Assembly: GCF_000011385.1 (NCBI RefSeq)
Contig: NC_005125.1
Location: 3,348,001-3,412,000, forward strand
Length of the DNA: 64,000 bases
Source: Gloeobacter violaceus PCC 7421
GTDB taxonomy: Bacteria; Cyanobacteriota; Cyanobacteriia; Gloeobacterales; Gloeobacteraceae
Direction of reading: 5' to 3'
Under the pieces are notes generated by a model. It made no database searches, was not told the DNA's origin, and saw nothing but the letters and a program-made list of their open reading frames with translations. Positions 14,429-23,010 of this stretch are shown in pieces; positions within the stretch are counted from its first letter, which is position 1; every line of letters starts with the position of its first letter. The position numbers and the translations under genes are program-made.

Positions 14429-17215
14429 ATGCTTCTTACCAACCGACCCTCCCCATTGCCGGTCGCGCGCTCGACGGCTTTTGCCGCTTCCTTGCTGGCG
14501 CTCGGCCTGGGCATCGCCTGTGCCGCCGCTCCCGCCGCCGCCCGTCCCGGCGGTGTGCCCGCCAATCTCGGCGGCGGCCTCGGCCAACTTGTCGAGCGCT
14601 ACAACGTCAACCGCGGCGCCCTTGATCGCACCGCTCCCCGCTTCGGTGCCGATTACACCAGGCTCGCCATCTTCGACAAGCAGCAGCGCGTGCAGGTGGC
14701 GATTCACCTGAAGCGCGGCTGGCCGTTGGCTGAATTCAAGCGCACCGTACAGGGCAGGAACGATCTCAAAGATCTGCGCATCACCGCCGAGAGTGATCGC
14801 ACGCGTGCCGCGATCGTCGAAGCGTTCGTGCCGGTAGCGGCGGTCTCCAAACTAGCCGGATTGCGGTCGGTCTCAGCAGTGCACCTGGTACCCCGGCCGG
14901 TCACCGATGTGGGGGCCACCACCAGCCAGGGCGTCGTCCAACACCGGGTGGATCAGCTCCCCGCCGGTATCGACGGCAGCGGCATCACCGTCGGTGTGCT
15001 CTCCGACAGCTACAACACCTCCACCAACCCGGTCAAAGCAGCCAACGACATCGCCACCGGCGATCTGCCCGGTCCCGGTAACCCGCTGGGCAACACCGAG
15101 CCGGTGGTGATCCTCGAAGAACTGGATGATGTGGGTATCGACGAGGGCCGGGCGATGCTGCAGATTATCCACGACCTCGCTCCCAAGGCGAAGCTGTGCT
15201 TTGCCACCGCCTTCACTGGCCAGGTGGGCTTCGCCAACAACATCCGGGGCCTTGCCGATCCGACCCTGGGTTGTGGTGCCAGCGTGATCGTCGATGACAT
15301 CATCTACCTGGATGAACCGTTTTTCACCGACGGGATCATCGCCCAGGCGGTGGACGATGTGGCAGCTTTGGGGGTGCCCTACTTCTCCTCGGCCGGTAAC
15401 CGGCCCTCCACCCAGGCCTATCTGTCGGATCTGAAGCTGGTGGCACCCACGACCAGTTCGCTCGCCGGTACCAACATCAAGCTCACCGGTGTCGATCCAG
15501 CGCTCTACGCAGGGGGCTTCCACAACTTCAACCCGCGCGGCCTCGATATCGCCCAGCCGATTTCGCTGAGCGGCGGCGGCACGATCAGCTTCCAGTGGGA
15601 CGACCCTTACGACGCGCCCATCGAAGAAGGCCCGGAACTGCTCAGTACCGCCGGTGAAATCACCACAGCCCAACCGGTGGCAGATATTCCCTTTGCCGGT
15701 ACCGCCGGACAGGCGATTAAAATCACCGCCGACGGCGTGCCCTCGGGCGATCTCGACATTGTTCTGACGTTCATCGCCCCCGACGGCACGGTGCTTGCCA
15801 CCATCGACACCGGCACCAGCCCGGAAACTTACGCCGCCACCCTCGCCCAGACGGGCACCTACACCATCCGGATTACCGGTTTTGAAGGCGACACCGGACC
15901 GTTCACGGTCGTGGTCAACGAAGTATCCGGTTCGGTCCCGGTCACCTCCGACTTCAACTTGCTGTTCTTTGACACCAACGGCAACTTCCTGTTCGCCTCG
16001 GCCACCGACAACATCGCCGGCAACCGACCGCTGGAACTGTTTGACATCGGCGGCACCGGGACGTTGCAGATGGTGATTGCCCGGGCCAATACCCCGCCCC
16101 CTTCGCCCACCCCGGCGAGTAAGTTGCGCTACGTCTGGTTTACTTCCGGTTCGCCCACCGAGTACTTTGCCTACGACTACCCGGTCACCTTCGGCCACAA
16201 CTCGGCGGCGGGCGGCAACGGGGTGGCAGCCTACGCCTTCTATGCGCCGTTTATTCCCGAAGGCTTCACCTCGCCGGGTCCGGTGACGATCTTCTTTGAC
16301 ACCGAGGGCAATCGCCTGCCCACCCCCGAAGTGCGCCAGAAACCGGACATGGCCGCCATGGACGGCGCGAACACGACGTTTTTCACCTCCGACACCAGCG
16401 CCGATCCGGACACCTTCCCGAACTTCTTCGGCACCAGCGCCGCCGCCCCCCACGCCGCAGCCATTGCCGCGCTGGTGCTGCAGAAAAACGGCGGACCTTT
16501 CTCGCTCACCCCGGCTCAGATGCGCACGATCTTGCAGCAGAGCGCCTTCCCCCACGACCTCGACCCGTACCTGGCAAGCGGTGTGGCCGTGGCGGGCGCT
16601 ACGCGCATCTCGTTTAGGGCCGTGGGCGACGGCAGCTTCACCTCCCAGGTCGATCCGAATTTCTTCCGCGTCGGGGTCGCGGGCCTGGGCACTGTGAGCG
16701 GCTTTACCCTGGACGGCACCACCGGCAATCCCACCGGCGCTTCCGCCGATCCGGGCCTGGTCTTCGATTCGCGCACGGCGGCCACCTCGCCTCCCGGCTT
16801 TCCCTTCACCGTCGGCAACGTCCGGGGACTCAGCGCGTCCGACGTCACCGGCACCCTCGGACCGACGCCGCCCTCCCCGGCGGTGGCGGGCCAATCGAGC
16901 ACCCTCGCGGTCACCCTCACCCCCGGCGTGTTCGGCGGCGGCGACTTCTTCACCTTCGGGATCGACCGCGACGAGTTGCCGACCGCCTTCAGCCCCCCTT
17001 CAGCGGCGGGCGGCAACTCCGCCGACTTGTTGGGCGACGGGGTGTTGATTCCGCAGGGGACCGTCGCCGCCGGCGGGGTCACCTTCAGCGGCAGCCTCGG
17101 CTCCGGCCAGAGCTTCAGCGGTGTCTTCACCAACCAGATCGGCGCCGGCTACACGCCCCTCGACGGCTTCGGCTTCATCAACGCCGAGGCGGCGGTGAAC
17201 GCGCCGCTGCCGTAG
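14429..17215 (+). CDS. Secreted subtilase-like protein with altered catalytic triad (paralogue 1)
   Basis: The protein has 928 residues. A signal peptide ends near AAARP (about residue 39). A pro-region (about 40-180) is followed by a subtilisin-like core: Asp193 in VGVLSDSY, the oxyanion Asn324 in YFSSAGN, and Ser670 in FGTSAAAPHAAA. Where subtilases have HGT, this protein has DEGRAML with Glu239, so the classical catalytic His is absent. A PPC-like beta domain (about 425-500, GDLDIVLTFIAPDGTVL) is inserted between Asn and Ser. The C-terminal ~200 residues form a beta-rich domain ending VNAPLP. It may be an active variant protease or a binding protein. The next gene is a close paralogue. Family call is firm, activity is not. 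Confidence 0.85.
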   Translation: MLLTNRPSPLPVARSTAFAASLLALGLGIACAAAPAAARPGGVPANLGGGLGQLVERYNVNRGALDRTAPRFGADYTRLAIFDKQQRVQVAIHLKRGWPLAEFKRTVQGRNDLKDLRITAESDRTRAAIVEAFVPVAAVSKLAGLRSVSAVHLVPRPVTDVGATTSQGVVQHRVDQLPAGIDGSGITVGVLSDSYNTSTNPVKAANDIATGDLPGPGNPLGNTEPVVILEELDDVGIDEGRAMLQIIHDLAPKAKLCFATAFTGQVGFANNIRGLADPTLGCGASVIVDDIIYLDEPFFTDGIIAQAVDDVAALGVPYFSSAGNRPSTQAYLSDLKLVAPTTSSLAGTNIKLTGVDPALYAGGFHNFNPRGLDIAQPISLSGGGTISFQWDDPYDAPIEEGPELLSTAGEITTAQPVADIPFAGTAGQAIKITADGVPSGDLDIVLTFIAPDGTVLATIDTGTSPETYAATLAQTGTYTIRITGFEGDTGPFTVVVNEVSGSVPVTSDFNLLFFDTNGNFLFASATDNIAGNRPLELFDIGGTGTLQMVIARANTPPPSPTPASKLRYVWFTSGSPTEYFAYDYPVTFGHNSAAGGNGVAAYAFYAPFIPEGFTSPGPVTIFFDTEGNRLPTPEVRQKPDMAAMDGANTTFFTSDTSADPDTFPNFFGTSAAAPHAAAIAALVLQKNGGPFSLTPAQMRTILQQSAFPHDLDPYLASGVAVAGATRISFRAVGDGSFTSQVDPNFFRVGVAGLGTVSGFTLDGTTGNPTGASADPGLVFDSRTAATSPPGFPFTVGNVRGLSASDVTGTLGPTPPSPAVAGQSSTLAVTLTPGVFGGGDFFTFGIDRDELPTAFSPPSAAGGNSADLLGDGVLIPQGTVAAGGVTFSGSLGSGQSFSGVFTNQIGAGYTPLDGFGFINAEAAVNAPLP

Positions 17216-17255
17216 TTCACCTTTTCACGCAACGCGAGGAAAATTCACATTGACC

Positions 17256-17290
17256 CGGGCCACCGTCCAAAGCGGTGGCCCGCCTTCTTT
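17256..17290 (+). terminator. Terminator of the first subtilase-like gene
   Basis: A perfect 10-bp stem CGGGCCACCG / CGGTGGCCCG with a 7-base loop is followed by CCTTCTTT, 40 bases after the stop at 17215. Confidence 0.7.
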
Positions 17291-17351
17291 GCACGGGCCG
17301 AGCCGACCTCGTGGTAATAGAGCCCACTAGATTTCGGCTGGAGGCGGCCTA

Positions 17352-17357
17352 TATAAT
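17352..17357 (+). promoter_or_regulatory. -10 box of the second subtilase-like gene
   Basis: A perfect TATAAT lies 34 bases before the ATG at 17392. It is followed by CCTGCGGTTCTG, close to the CCGGCGGTTTCTG after the -10 box of the first paralogue. No clear -35 box is visible at the usual distance. Confidence 0.5.
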
Positions 17358-17391
17358 CCTGCGGTTCTGCCCAAAGCGTGGAATCACCTGT

Positions 17392-20193
17392 ATGCATCGA
17401 CTTTTTCTACCCTCCAGCACCCGCCGCACGAGCTTTGTCGCATCGTGTCTGGCCCTCGGCCTCGGCGTGGCGGTGTCGCCTGCCCTGGCCAAACCCTCTG
17501 GCCTGCCTGCCAATCTGGGCGCCGGTCTCGCCCCGCTTCTCCAGCAGTTCGAGGCGCAGAAGGGGCAGCTCAATCGGACCGCCGTCCGGCGCGGCTTGAA
17601 TTTCACCAAACTGGCCCAGTTCGACAAACAAAACCGGGTGCTGGTCTCGGTGCACCTCAACCGCAGGCAGTCGCTCTCCGGGATCAAACGCACCCTGCAG
17701 GGCAGAACCGACTGGAAAGATCTGCGCATCACCGCCGAGAGCGACCGCTACCGCGCCGGGGTCTTCGAGGCGTTCGTGCCGCCCGCCCTGGTCGCGAAGC
17801 TGGCGGGGCTACCGGGGGTTTCGGCGGTGCACCTGGTGCCCAAACCGGTGACCGATGTGGGGGCCACCACCAGCCAGGGCGTCGTCCAGCACCGGGTGGA
17901 CAAGCTCCCTGCCGGTATCGACGGCGGCGGCATCACCGTGGGCGCCCTCTCCGACAGCTACGACACGGCCGCAGTGGATCTGGGCGGTTTTCCGCTCACT
18001 ATCCGGGCGGCGGACGACGTCGCCTCGGGCGACCTGCCCGGCCCGGGCAATCCGAACAACGCCCAACCGGTGGTGGTGCTCCAGGACGGCGCCTCCGATG
18101 ACATCGACGAGGGCCGGGCGATGCTGCAGATTATCCACGACCTCGCTCCCAAGGCGAAGCTGTGCTTTGCCACCGCCACCGGCGGCGAGGTGAATTTCGC
18201 CAACAACATCCGCAATCTCGCCGATCCGACCCTGGGGTGTGGTGCCAGCGTGATTGTGGACGACATCATCTATCTGTCTGAACCGTTCTTTACCGACGGC
18301 ATCATCGCCCAGGCGGTGGACGAGGTGGCCGCCCAGGGTGTGGCCTACTTCTCCTCGGCCGGCAACCGGCCTTCCACCCAGGCGTACTTCTCGGACTTGA
18401 GGCTGGTACCGGCCGCCCCCGCCGCCCTGGCGGGCACCAACATCAAGCTCGCGGGCATTCCCAGTGCGCTGTACGCCGGGGGCTTCCACAACTTCAACCC
18501 CCAAGGACTCGATATCGCCCAGTCGATCCGGCTCGACCCGGCCGCGGGCGGTACGCTGGTGCTGCAGTGGGACGACCCCTACGACGCGGAAATTCCCCTG
18601 GGCGAGACGCTGCTCGATAGCAGCGGCACGATCACCGCCGCCCAGCCGGTGGCCAGTTTCCCGATTGCCGTGAGTGCCGGACAATCCGTGCAGGTCTTCG
18701 CGGACGGCGTGCCCTCGGGCGATCTCGACATCGTGCTGACGCTTAGAGATCCTGCGGGTACCGTCCTGCAGACCATCGACACCGGCACCAGCCCCGAGGT
18801 GCTGGGCTTCACCGCCGATGTCGCCGGTACCTACACCGTAGAAGTTTCGGGCTTCCAGGGCGACACCGGGCCGTTTACGATCACCGCCAACGAGATTACC
18901 GGTGCGCTACCGGTCACCTCCGATTTCAATGCCCTGTTTTTTGACGCGGACGGCAACTTCATCGGGGCGGCGGCCACCGACAATATCGGCGCCAACCGCC
19001 CCCTGGAACTAGCCGGGCTCTCGGGCCTCGACACACTGCAACTGGTGATCGCCCGCGCCAATACCCCGGCCCCTTCACCCACCCCGGCGAGCAAACTGCG
19101 CTACGTCTGGTTCACCACGGGCGAGCCGACCGAGTACTTCGCCTACGACTACCCGGTCACCTTCGGCCACAACTCGGCGGCGGGCGGCAACGGCGTGGCG
19201 GCCTACGCCTTCTTCCCGCCGTTTATTCCCGAAAGCTTCACCTCGCCGGGGCCGGTGACGATCTTCTTCGACACCGAGGGCAATCGTCTCCCGGTTCCCG
19301 AGGTGCGCCTCAAACCCGACATGGCCGCGATGGACGGTGCCAACAACACCTTCTTCCCCTCGCCGGTGCCCTCGGTGGGCGACAGCACCGCCGACCCGGA
19401 CCGCTTCGCCAACTTCTTCGGCACCAGCGCCGCTGCCCCCCACGCCGCGGCCATCGCCGCGCTGGTGCTTGACAAAAACGGCGGACCTTTCTCGGTCACT
19501 CCGGCTCAGATGCGCACGATCCTCCAGCAGAGCGCCTTCCCCCACGACCTCGACCCGTACTTCGCCAGCGGCCTTGTGCGCCTGGGCGGTGCGCGGGTCA
19601 CCTTCAAGGCGGTGGGCGACGGCAGCCTCACCTCCCAGACCGATCCGAACTTCTTCCGGGTCACTTTCACCGGCGCGGGCAGCCTGGAGCGCTTCACCCT
19701 GGACGGCACCACCGGCAATCCGACCGGGGCCACCAGCGATCCAGGTCTGGTCTTCGACTCGCGCGACGGCTCCGGTTTGCCGTTTACGGTCGGGATCACC
19801 CGCGGCCTGAGTGCCTCCGACGTCACCGGCACCCTCGGGCCGACGCCGCCCTCACCGGGTGCGGCAGGCCAATCGAGCACGCTGGCCGTTACCCTCACCC
19901 CCGGCGTGTTCGGCCCCGGCAGCCTGCTTACCTTCGGGATCGACCGCGACGAGTTTCCGACCGCCTTCAATCCGCCCTCGGCGGCGGGCGGCAACTCCGC
20001 CGACCTGTTGGGCGACGGGGTGCTGATTCCGCAGGGGACCGTCGCCACCGGCGGGGTCACCTTCACCGGCACCCTCGCCTCGGGCGCTCAGATCACCGGG
20101 GTGTTCACCAACAAAATCGGCAAGGGCTATTCGATTCTGGACGGCTTCGGCTTTATCAACGCCGAGGCGGCCGTGAACGCGCCGCTGCCGTAG
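17392..20193 (+). CDS. Secreted subtilase-like protein with altered catalytic triad (paralogue 2)
   Basis: The ATG at 17392 gives 933 residues with a signal peptide ending near SPALA (about residue 33); longer in-frame starts upstream would run through the promoter. The layout equals that of its neighbour at 14429: Asp in VGALSDSYDT, Glu in DIDEGRAMLQ in place of the catalytic His, Asn in YFSSAGNRPS, Ser in FGTSAAAPHAA, a PPC-like insert (GDLDIVLTLRDPAGTVL) and the same C-terminal domain. Differences cluster in loops, for example a longer PSPVPSVGDS loop before the Ser. The two genes arose by tandem duplication and each has its own -10 box and terminator. Confidence 0.85.
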   Translation: MHRLFLPSSTRRTSFVASCLALGLGVAVSPALAKPSGLPANLGAGLAPLLQQFEAQKGQLNRTAVRRGLNFTKLAQFDKQNRVLVSVHLNRRQSLSGIKRTLQGRTDWKDLRITAESDRYRAGVFEAFVPPALVAKLAGLPGVSAVHLVPKPVTDVGATTSQGVVQHRVDKLPAGIDGGGITVGALSDSYDTAAVDLGGFPLTIRAADDVASGDLPGPGNPNNAQPVVVLQDGASDDIDEGRAMLQIIHDLAPKAKLCFATATGGEVNFANNIRNLADPTLGCGASVIVDDIIYLSEPFFTDGIIAQAVDEVAAQGVAYFSSAGNRPSTQAYFSDLRLVPAAPAALAGTNIKLAGIPSALYAGGFHNFNPQGLDIAQSIRLDPAAGGTLVLQWDDPYDAEIPLGETLLDSSGTITAAQPVASFPIAVSAGQSVQVFADGVPSGDLDIVLTLRDPAGTVLQTIDTGTSPEVLGFTADVAGTYTVEVSGFQGDTGPFTITANEITGALPVTSDFNALFFDADGNFIGAAATDNIGANRPLELAGLSGLDTLQLVIARANTPAPSPTPASKLRYVWFTTGEPTEYFAYDYPVTFGHNSAAGGNGVAAYAFFPPFIPESFTSPGPVTIFFDTEGNRLPVPEVRLKPDMAAMDGANNTFFPSPVPSVGDSTADPDRFANFFGTSAAAPHAAAIAALVLDKNGGPFSVTPAQMRTILQQSAFPHDLDPYFASGLVRLGGARVTFKAVGDGSLTSQTDPNFFRVTFTGAGSLERFTLDGTTGNPTGATSDPGLVFDSRDGSGLPFTVGITRGLSASDVTGTLGPTPPSPGAAGQSSTLAVTLTPGVFGPGSLLTFGIDRDEFPTAFNPPSAAGGNSADLLGDGVLIPQGTVATGGVTFTGTLASGAQITGVFTNKIGKGYSILDGFGFINAEAAVNAPLP

Positions 20194-20214
20194 CAACCGG
20201 TTGCAAAGTCACCA

Positions 20215-20246
20215 AAGCGGCGCACCGGTCGGTGCGCCGCTTTTTT
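20215..20246. terminator. Strong bidirectional terminator
   Basis: A perfect 12-bp stem AAGCGGCGCACC with its complement and a 4-base loop is followed by six T on the plus strand; on the minus strand it is flanked by an A-rich/T-rich run as well. It lies between the second protease gene and the stop (20251) of the convergent adenylate-forming gene. Confidence 0.9.
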
Positions 20247-20250
20247 GGGT

Positions 20251-21312
20251 TCAAAACCCGGCCCCGGCCGCCCCACCCCGGCCGATGTCGCGGATGCGCG
20301 GGGTCGTGAGCCCGCAGGTACAAGCTGTATCCACCAAAAGCGCTTCGTCGCCGTTGTCGAGGCGCAACAGTTGCGAGCCCGCCTGGGGAACAGCCCCCCG
20401 CTCCTGGTCGTACCCGAGCAGGCGGGTGATGACCACCCGGCCCCTGTGTCCCGCCGTCACCGGTCGCCCCCGGACATCGACGATCTCGACGTAGACGTGT
20501 CCCAAAGCCAGGTGAAATTCCTCCGGGTGCTCTCGGCAGGCGATCCCGAGGGTACCGAATTCAGAAGAGCCGTACAGGTTGGTGACGGTTGCCCCCTGCT
20601 CGCAGGCATGCTCGCGCAACTCGGGAGTAAACGTGCTGCTCGAACCTATCCACCAGCGGATGCCGTGGCGGCGGAACAGCTCCGGCTCGTGGCGCAACAA
20701 ATCTTCGACCGTTTTGCCGCTTTTTTTGAGGCCCGAGCGCTGGGCAAGTACCAGGGTGTTGCACCCGAACGTTTCGATTTGCTGGACTGTCGAAGCTTCG
20801 TCGTCGGCCAGATAGTGGCGGGGGATGACGGTGGCTCCCATCTGCCGCAGACCGTCGTCGTAGGCCGGCCCCATCAGGTGGCCCTGGTGGTAGCCGTTGA
20901 AGGCGACCAGTTGCAGGAGGGTCCGTGGCCTGTGGGTTTCGAGCAACGCCGCCAGGGTCATCGCGAGGGCCTGCCAGTCGGGCCGGGTCCAAAAAAACGA
21001 AGCGGGAACGCCAGTCGTGCCGCTCGTGGCGCGGCATAGATACAAACGGCTCCGACTGGCGTCCGGCAGCAAATCCCACGGCGAAAGCACCCGCAGTTCC
21101 GCCTTGGTCATCGGCGGTAGGGCGGCAAATTCTTCGAGGCTGTCGAGGGTGGGGGGGAGGCCGTGTTTTTGCAGCCGATCGGCCCAGAAGGGCACATGCC
21201 GGTGGGCAAAGGCGACCTGGGCGCGCACCGCCTCCAGCAGCAAGGCGGCCCGCTGTTCGGTGGAGACCGCGTTCGGGTGACCTGGCTCGAAGAATAGACT
21301 GTGCTTTTCCAT
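20251..21312 (-). CDS. PaaK-like adenylate-forming enzyme lacking the C-terminal lid domain
   Basis: The ATG at 21312 gives 353 residues. The protein resembles phenylacetate-CoA-ligase-type adenylating enzymes: the P-loop-like CRATSGTTGVPASFFWT (about 95-111), the hairpin strand VTNLYGSSEFG (about 248-258) that binds AMP, and DTACTCGLTTPRIRDIGR near the end, which matches the hinge before the mobile lid. It stops right there, so the ~100-residue C-terminal lid of PaaK is absent and a terminator follows the stop directly. The upstream gene, a di-iron-oxidase-like fusion, ends eight bases before, so both are one operon. The acid substrate is unknown. A real, possibly half-reaction-only or degenerate enzyme is the best reading. 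Confidence 0.8.
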   Translation of the reverse strand: MEKHSLFFEPGHPNAVSTEQRAALLLEAVRAQVAFAHRHVPFWADRLQKHGLPPTLDSLEEFAALPPMTKAELRVLSPWDLLPDASRSRLYLCRATSGTTGVPASFFWTRPDWQALAMTLAALLETHRPRTLLQLVAFNGYHQGHLMGPAYDDGLRQMGATVIPRHYLADDEASTVQQIETFGCNTLVLAQRSGLKKSGKTVEDLLRHEPELFRRHGIRWWIGSSSTFTPELREHACEQGATVTNLYGSSEFGTLGIACREHPEEFHLALGHVYVEIVDVRGRPVTAGHRGRVVITRLLGYDQERGAVPQAGSQLLRLDNGDEALLVDTACTCGLTTPRIRDIGRGGAAGAGF

Positions 21313-21319
21313 AGCATTC

Positions 21320-22243
21320 CTAAGGGCGCGGGACGGGTTTGAGGGTGGTATCGAAGAAATCGTAGAGCAGTCCGCTCGCTTCGACCGCGACTTCGAGCGC
21401 CTCTTCCCATTTGCGTGGGCTGTCGCACGCCCCAAACAGTGCGAAGCGCAGCTGTTCGGCGTGATCGACATCCACTTCGGAGTGGACATCGAAGAAGCGA
21501 ACGGCATCCTCGTCGAGTTCCAGTCGGCGCAACCCAGCGGCAAGCAGCGTGCAGATCGGGCTGAACTGTTTTTCAAATCCGTAGAGCATCGCAAGGGCGC
21601 GGTGATCAGGCCCTTCGGCGCAAACTGCGTTGTAGCGTTCGACAACCGCGGCGGCGGGCGCATTGTCGAGATTGACAAACGCATCCGGGTTCAAGTCGAG
21701 GGCGCGAATATAGTTGCGAAATAGCTCAGGATGGGTCTGGCTGGCATCGAGATTACCGTGCTCCTCATAGAGGTTGCCCACCAGCAGCAGGCGTGCATTC
21801 TCGTCGCGGACATGTCCAATCGCCCTGGCCAAAAAAATCGGAAAGTCGAGCGAAATTGGGTAATAGTGCGCGAGTGCCGCCGGATCGACGGCCACTTTGC
21901 CCTCGGCAAAAAGACGCACCACGGCGCTATTGTTGATAGCATACTTCGAAACGCGACTTGCGATTTCTTCACGTCGAAGCAGCTCTTCCGCCTGCTCCAG
22001 CGTAGGGCAGCCTGTATAAACCGTCCTTTGGCCGAAGGCAATCACAGGCAATTCGTCGGCCTCGCCCAACGGGGCGCTTGGATCAAGGGGCAACTCGAGC
22101 ACCTGCACAGAACCGCTGCGCCTGGCCGCCACCTGCCGCATCACCTCGGCAGCTTGCAGGCAAAGGGTGTCGCCGCTACCGTGAACGCTCACCACCAATT
22201 GCGCGCTATGGCGCTCTTTCGTTGAAGCATCAAGCGTCTGCAT
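21320..22243 (-). CDS. Thioredoxin-like domain fused to a haem-oxygenase-like di-iron oxidase (HDO)
   Basis: The ATG at 22243, with GGAG six bases upstream, gives 307 residues. The first ~95 residues have a thioredoxin/glutaredoxin-like pattern (QLVVSVHGSGDTLCLQAAEV, then ELPVIAFGQRTVYTGCP). The rest is a helical domain of the PqqC/TENA/CADD-like superfamily. Putative iron ligands, numbered on this start, are a Glu in NLYEEHG (about 161), His171 in THPELF, Glu224 in YGFEKQF, His254, Asp258 and His261 in DVHSEVDVDH; the H-x3-D-x2-H spacing equals that of CADD-type oxidases. Such enzymes use O2 to cleave or hydroxylate amino- or fatty-acid substrates. The downstream gene encodes a PaaK-like adenylating protein, suggesting a two-step modification of one acid. 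The substrate is unknown. Confidence 0.75.
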   Translation of the reverse strand: MQTLDASTKERHSAQLVVSVHGSGDTLCLQAAEVMRQVAARRSGSVQVLELPLDPSAPLGEADELPVIAFGQRTVYTGCPTLEQAEELLRREEIASRVSKYAINNSAVVRLFAEGKVAVDPAALAHYYPISLDFPIFLARAIGHVRDENARLLLVGNLYEEHGNLDASQTHPELFRNYIRALDLNPDAFVNLDNAPAAAVVERYNAVCAEGPDHRALAMLYGFEKQFSPICTLLAAGLRRLELDEDAVRFFDVHSEVDVDHAEQLRFALFGACDSPRKWEEALEVAVEASGLLYDFFDTTLKPVPRP

Positions 22244-22779
22244 ATTCCACTCCAAATACGCTTATTTTCAATCACACAACAACGACAAACCAAGTTACTA
22301 TTTGTCGTCAACAGCAAACCCTGTTCGTTCCCTTCGATGCCATAATAGTATCGCTCTCGCAAAAGAATAAGAACAGCAAATGAAAGGCATTTGCATTCGT
22401 TTTCAACGCGATCTCACAAAATCATCAAATAACAGAGAGCCTTTCATTGCAATAGCAAAGCAGTTCAACATACATCAGAGATCAATGGATCTAGATCGGG
22501 ATTTATCAGTGGAGCTGATAGCATTCGAGCATCTATTGCGTGGGTAGGAGTCTCCAGAGTGTTTGGTTTGTAGTAATCACGGATACTGGATGCACACGAC
22601 TGCATCGCAGGCTCTAGTGAGTGAAAATCGCACGACAACCGTTTTGCGGCCGTGCGTTACAGAGCATTCTTAGGGAAGAGATTCTTAGAATATTGGCATC
22701 AAAAATTTGAGGGCGGTCCGACCCTTGGGTTGACGGCAGTGCCGGCCGTCTTAGCCTCAACCCAGTAAAGCCCACCGAT
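22244..22779. other. AT-richer intergenic stretch without a recognisable gene
   Basis: This part of the gap between the HDO gene and the glycosyltransferase gene is clearly more AT-rich than its surroundings. I see no coding frame with a plausible start and codon use, no tRNA and no long repeat. It should contain the promoter of the HDO-PaaK operon, but no unambiguous -35/-10 pair stands out. Confidence 0.5.
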
Positions 22780-22817
22780 AGGCGAAGCCCCGGCCGCGTG
22801 CGGCCGGGGCTTCGCCT
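22780..22817 (-). terminator. Very stable hairpin after the decayed small gene
   Basis: An 18-bp perfect inverted repeat (AGGCGAAGCCCCGGCCGC and its complement) with a 2-base loop lies 16 bases beyond the stop of the frameshifted gene at 22833. No T-run follows on the minus strand, so termination efficiency is uncertain. Confidence 0.6.
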
Positions 22818-22832
22818 GGGATATAAAAACGC

Positions 22833-23010
22833 TCAAACGCGCTCGGGTTGTTTCTCGGCTTCGCCCTCCGACCGCGGCTCGCCGCTGTCACCCAGTCTGT
22901 CCGGGAGCAGCTTTTCGAGCCCTTGGCGATCAGGGGCAAAAACCCGATCGCCGCCACCACGCCGATCACAATGCAATGATTTTTTGGTCTTCATGGGTAA
23001 GTTTGTCCAC
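22833..23010 (-). pseudogene. Small membrane-protein gene broken by two single-base deletions
   Basis: GTG at 23010 is preceded by a strong GGAAGGAG seven bases upstream and starts VDKLTHEDQKIIAL before a TGA at 22966. In the -1 frame the sequence continues at once with VIGVVAAIGFLPLIAKG, a transmembrane helix, and a second shift near 22917 leads into LEKLLPDRLGDSG and ends PERV at the TGA at 22833, just before a strong hairpin. Restoring one base at each point gives an intact protein of about 59 residues with one membrane helix and a charged tail. It is either a recently decayed gene or a gene hit by sequencing errors. I do not recognise the family. Confidence 0.6.

Follow-up and report, generated by a model that had tools for sequence, protein, structure and literature searches.

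A two-gene locus on the minus strand of the Gloeobacter violaceus PCC 7421 genome (positions 20251-22243 of the window, by which we mean the whole 64,000-nucleotide stretch of DNA analysed) joins a heme-oxygenase-like dimetal oxidase (HDO) with an additional N-terminal domain (gene 1) to a PaaK-like core that has no lid (gene 2), which is an unusual combination. The reading that we favour, with about as much doubt as conviction, is that the pair forms a dispensable, lineage-restricted metabolic operon, in which an accessory oxidase works with an acid-binding or acid-activating partner. Comparisons at the sequence level establish the identity of the domains, the ligand set of the oxidase, the absence of the lid, the gene order and selection on both genes.

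Layout and signals of the gene pair

The window is harboured by a single-contig genome of 4,659,019 bases, and the records nearest to it are the MAG Aphanocapsa lilacina and genomes of the same genus. Both open reading frames have the position and strand that the original prediction gave them. Gene 1 (21320..22243, minus strand) encodes 307 amino acids, made up of an N-terminal domain of ~95 residues and an HDO (Haem_oxygenas_2) domain, and starts at an ATG at 22243 that is preceded by a GGAG ribosome-binding sequence. Gene 2 (20251..21312, minus strand) encodes 353 amino acids, a PaaK-like adenylating core without the C-terminal lid. Its ATG lies at 21312 and the gene 1 stop at 21320, leaving an intergenic gap of 7 bases (21313..21319, minus strand); the genes do lie close together on one strand, though the spacing had been given as eight bases. 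A TAGGA sequence overlapping the gene 1 stop codon, as read by eye, can act as a putative ribosome-binding site for gene 2.

Upstream of the pair, the presumed promoter region (22244..22748, minus strand) is A+T-rich (44.6% GC) and belongs to a block that is 95% identical to the second species carrying the module (G003). A search for sigma-70-type promoters gave zero matches for the gene pair. As for the terminator that the two genes were thought to share, a hairpin of 13 pairs (20214..20243, no strand assigned) is indeed present between the convergent genes. It begins 7 bases past the end of gene 2, whose neighbour ends only 57 bases away, and because its clear T-run sits on the opposite (plus) strand only, it more plausibly terminates the convergent gene and may act in both directions.

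Other features of the surroundings were also recorded. At 22749-22975 of the window, a 227-base segment with a 38-base inverted repeat (22780-22817) is missing from the otherwise collinear G003 and is possibly a small mobile element or a remnant of one. Two large tandem proteins of 928 and 972 aa are encoded at 14429-20193, with DNA ~75-77% alike and a subtilisin-like GTSAAAPHAA motif that was spotted by eye. PHROGs and PADLOC searches gave zero matches.

Domains of the two proteins

The HDO domain of gene 1 (residues ~95-300; 21344..21961, minus strand) was recognised by Pfam Haem_oxygenas_2 (PF14518), which matches residues 124-287 at 108.8 bits (cut-off 28.9; E 3.6e-31). Its six metal ligands (E161, H171, E224, H254, D258 and H261) make up a complete 3H/3C set, the one used by most HDOs (PMC13108848), and the expected H-x3-D-x2-H motif is intact as H254-x3-D258-x2-H261. 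All six fall in invariant columns of an 11-row alignment with cyanobacterial HDOs, and they also line up with those of 26 cyanobacterial relatives (27-row alignment). With a domain score over the curated cut-off and the full ligand set, gene 1 resembles the HDO superfamily, from which it differs by its additional N-terminal domain and a very long branch. This branch, of 4.5 changes per site in a maximum-likelihood tree, lies outside the CADD clade, and its length makes the exact position unsure. Between the two species with intact copies, 12 of 15 differences in gene 1 fall at residues 8-116 and the other three at 295-307, while residues 117-294 show none, which marks the HDO core as the strongly constrained part of the protein. 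Single-sequence structure models of both proteins were poor (pLDDT 41 for gene 1 and 48 for gene 2).

The closest family match of gene 1, and its best in NCBIfam, is the CADD family of self-sacrificing pABA synthases (TIGR04305), which together with NePabS also includes its best solved relatives; the score, 62 bits, falls short of the cut-off of 200. In a search of PDB sequences, the nearest solved proteins were 4-aminobenzoate synthases, BesC and HrmI, and gene 1 aligns only weakly with each of BesC, CADD and HrmI. In NePabS, a sacrificial Tyr and Lys have been experimentally confirmed, and its peptides place the Tyr in HPFY and the Lys in the segment AVAKIDGL (PMC11965152). Both are retained in 16/16 cyanobacterial CADD-like proteins that we aligned, whereas gene 1 has Val109 and Leu234 at these sites.

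The N-terminal domain (gene 1 residues ~10-93; 21965..22216, minus strand) had been described as thioredoxin-like, for which the evidence is weak. Comparison with Pfam, NCBIfam and PDB sequences brought up no meaningful match, and what speaks for the description is an hhalign alignment to a cyanobacterial Thioredoxin_3 profile, which covers 72 columns end to end with a marginal P of 0.0098 and has the cis-Pro position in register. Five control pieces gave P of 0.35-0.86 against the same profile, and 2 of 150 column shuffles reached the score, neither with an alignment that long. Against a Glrx-like family, the domain gave P 0.037 and controls 0.053-0.73. A thioredoxin fold is plausible but unproven on these alignments. 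The position of the CxxC motif reads D25-T-L-C28 in gene 1 and DAPC in the second species, leaving a dithiol redox role unsupported; with the fold weakly indicated and the CxxC missing, the suggestion that a built-in thioredoxin-like domain supplies electrons or a thiol finds no support. We also considered the domain as a transplanted lid and rejected this, as its hhalign scores against lid sequences were no better than those of controls.

Gene 2 retains in alignment the AMP-binding core of PaaK-type ligases (P-loop, A5, A7/A8), with the P-loop SGTTG from residue 97, YGSSE from 247, D322 and the hinge G344-R345. It scores 30.5 bits against PF00501 (cut-off 29.9), and its NCBIfam matches are PaaK-type, all of them below the NCBIfam cut-offs. 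The nearest solved protein is AjiA1 (6wuq, E 3e-13), a PaaK-family enzyme of benzoxazole biosynthesis that reportedly acts without domain alternation (PMC8388817). As originally predicted, gene 2 is of the PaaK type and comes to an end at the GR hinge; in the relatives examined the lid domain (PF14535) starts just past it, and stand-alone PaaK relatives mostly have 433-456 residues. PF14535 was not found in gene 2, although its relatives carry it. Genome-wide it had zero matches over the cut-off, and a lid encoded as a separate gene elsewhere was rejected, the sole match in the genome being below the cut-off and within a 587-aa frame. Nor is there a lid downstream, given where gene 2, the hairpin and the convergent gene end. 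Because the lid is absent, so is the A10 lysine, the key catalytic residue for adenylation (PMC8388817), and without it gene 2 may be incapable of adenylation. Gene 2 is therefore like PaaK-type ligases, AjiA1 included, in its core, P-loop, A5 motif, D322 and GR hinge, and unlike them in having neither the lid nor the A10 lysine.

That such a protein may work in a new way for want of a lid was an overstatement, as lid-less PaaK-like proteins are already catalogued. The best NCBIfam match of gene 2 is the DVU_1553 family of AMP-dependent CoA ligases (NF045666), which describes PaaK-like proteins of such length; its 331-position model aligns with gene 2 over almost the full length, although the score of 92 bits is well under the cut-off of 300. 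The PaaK-related LuxE (PF04443) appears similar, partial Pfam matches to two PaaK relatives suggesting that it ends near the hinge, though gene 2 itself gave zero LuxE matches at E up to 10. AjiA1, with its described lack of domain alternation, points the same way.

Distribution, proposed function and rival explanations

Our survey of distribution covered 39 relatives and 386 genomes of the same phylum, among which both genes were intact only in the source genome and G003. The proteins of these two are 95% and 97% identical, and the pair has the same place, orientation and 7-base gap in both. The dN/dS values between the two intact copies are 0.158 and 0.170 (the latter for gene 2), compared with 0.065 for the neighbouring glycosyltransferase, which indicates purifying selection on both genes that is weaker than on a core gene. 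In a MAG (G001), a deletion remnant of the module (L060:18380-18842) keeps the 3'-terminal 23 codons of gene 2 and has two internal deletions, both clean; as it lies near a contig end, an assembly fault is possible. Another relative (G002) has neither gene but retains the glycosyltransferase ortholog together with the genes that follow. The remnant and this absence make the module look dispensable, and the lid-less state predates the divergence of the three genomes in which it occurs.

Conserved adjacency across cyanobacteria was not seen, the genomes searched holding two near-identical intact copies and one remnant. No PaaK-like neighbour was found within ~1.5 kb of 26 other cyanobacterial HDO relatives, or within ~8 kb at 8 of the 26 loci. 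A full-length PaaK beside the same oxidase, which the original prediction had named as evidence against itself, was present in none of the genomes examined. Searches of viral contigs found no relatives, and those of plasmids none of gene 1; the plasmid matches of gene 2 were distant (~23-31% identity, mostly named PaaK), and 4/4 examined were full length. No paper combining HDO, PaaK and thioredoxin was found in the literature.

In the operon proposed here, the HDO domain of gene 1 would bind two iron ions (or Fe/Mn) and oxidise a small carboxylic or amino acid using O2. Most characterised HDO substrates are fatty acids or amino acids, and only about a dozen members of the superfamily are functionally validated (PMC13108848). 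Gene 2 would bind the acid, as substrate or product, together with ATP in a pocket of the PaaK/AjiA1 type, and would present it or slowly activate it by forming the adenylate, with no domain rotation of the kind seen in normal acyl-CoA ligases. For the N-terminal domain of gene 1, a docking or structural role is most likely; it is not a classical dithiol reductase. We infer the O2 chemistry, the metal identity and a common pathway for the pair. The idea that an HDO and an adenylating partner act on one acid keeps its support from co-orientation and purifying selection and loses its thioredoxin component. Joint function is supported by the 7-base gap and co-orientation in both intact species and by purifying selection on both genes; against it, this evidence comes from two close genomes, and no independent lineage among the genomes searched has the pair. 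Among the adjoining genes there are no other obviously biosynthetic ones.

Of the competing explanations, the one we take most seriously, while still considering it unlikely, treats gene 2 as a catalytically dead relic of an ancestral full-length PaaK-like ligase that lost its lid, at most ligand-binding or even decaying. The PaaK relatives examined have a lid that begins where gene 2 ends, the A10 lysine is gone, the module is deleted in one relative and absent from another, and its dN/dS exceeds that of the neighbouring glycosyltransferase. Such a relic fits poorly, however, with a lid-less form common to three genomes (counting the C-terminus in the remnant), with the gene 2 dN/dS of 0.17 and zero stops or frameshifts in two intact copies, and with the retained core nucleotide-site positions. 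It is less probable that the two genes are mere neighbours, acquired together and serving unrelated processes. This would explain why adjacency is not repeated outside Gloeobacter in the genomes sampled and why the 26 HDO relatives have no PaaK-like neighbour, but the 7-base spacing, the overlapping ribosome-binding site and the retention of the pair in two species under purifying selection on both genes argue against it.

LuxE is an acyl-protein synthetase with its acceptor cysteine located in LuxE itself. A LuxE-like gene 2 could form an acyl-adenylate and pass the acyl group to a protein thiol, perhaps C28 or C79 of gene 1, and not to CoA, which we think somewhat less probable again. The apparent end of LuxE near the PaaK hinge and the presence of C28 in both intact copies, and of C79 in both and in the remnant, are in its favour; however, gene 2 fails to match the LuxE model, the LuxE acceptor is internal, and cysteine conservation among such close species means little. 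It is very unlikely that a substitute for the missing lid is supplied in trans, with gene 1 docking on gene 2, its N-terminal domain or a cysteine within it serving as lid or acyl acceptor, and the HDO oxidising the acid as adenylate or thioester; if true, this would be an adenylation-oxidation complex without CoA or a carrier protein. We find it hardly credible that gene 1 encodes a self-sacrificing p-aminobenzoate synthase of the CADD/PabS type. CADD is its best NCBIfam match and its top PDB sequences are annotated as 4-aminobenzoate synthases, yet the score is far under the cut-off, Val109 and Leu234 replace both sacrificial residues, and gene 1 lies outside the CADD clade, albeit on a very long branch.

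Read as an operon of oxidase and acid-binding partner, the pair adds to the fast-growing HDO superfamily a self-contained two-gene cyanobacterial case from a complete genome, easy to express and test, and able to reveal whether acids can still be activated by a PaaK core that has no lid. Its importance would grow if it occurred in independent lineages, of which none was seen in the genomes searched.

Related HDO loci in cyanobacteria

The best pairwise matches of gene 1 (E to 4e-18) are HDOs of cyanobacterial H-NOX operons (L063-L070). They have in common with it an indel before the HPELF motif and the lack of both sacrificial residues, and differ in having no N-terminal domain, in being only 24-26% identical and in their setting beside a methyltransferase, H-NOX and a sensor kinase. 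The order of methyltransferase, HDO, H-NOX (PF07700) and HNOBA sensor histidine kinase genes was seen in 8/8 cyanobacterial genomes examined, with domains named in one of them (L063:5145-8850) and assigned by similarity in L064-L070. Encoded next to an NO/O2 sensor, such an O2-using oxidase may produce or alter the signal of that sensor; we found no paper on the HDO/H-NOX gene group.

Sixteen cyanobacterial loci (L020:1354-2052 and 15 similar ones) encode CADD-family proteins with the sacrificial Tyr and Lys, which makes them candidate self-sacrificing pABA synthases; the one protein scanned scored 287 bits, over the TIGR04305 cut-off of 200. At two loci (L011:967-2358 and L031:970-2349), an HDO is joined to a C-terminal domain that by eye looks like a cupin, in proteins of ~460 aa.
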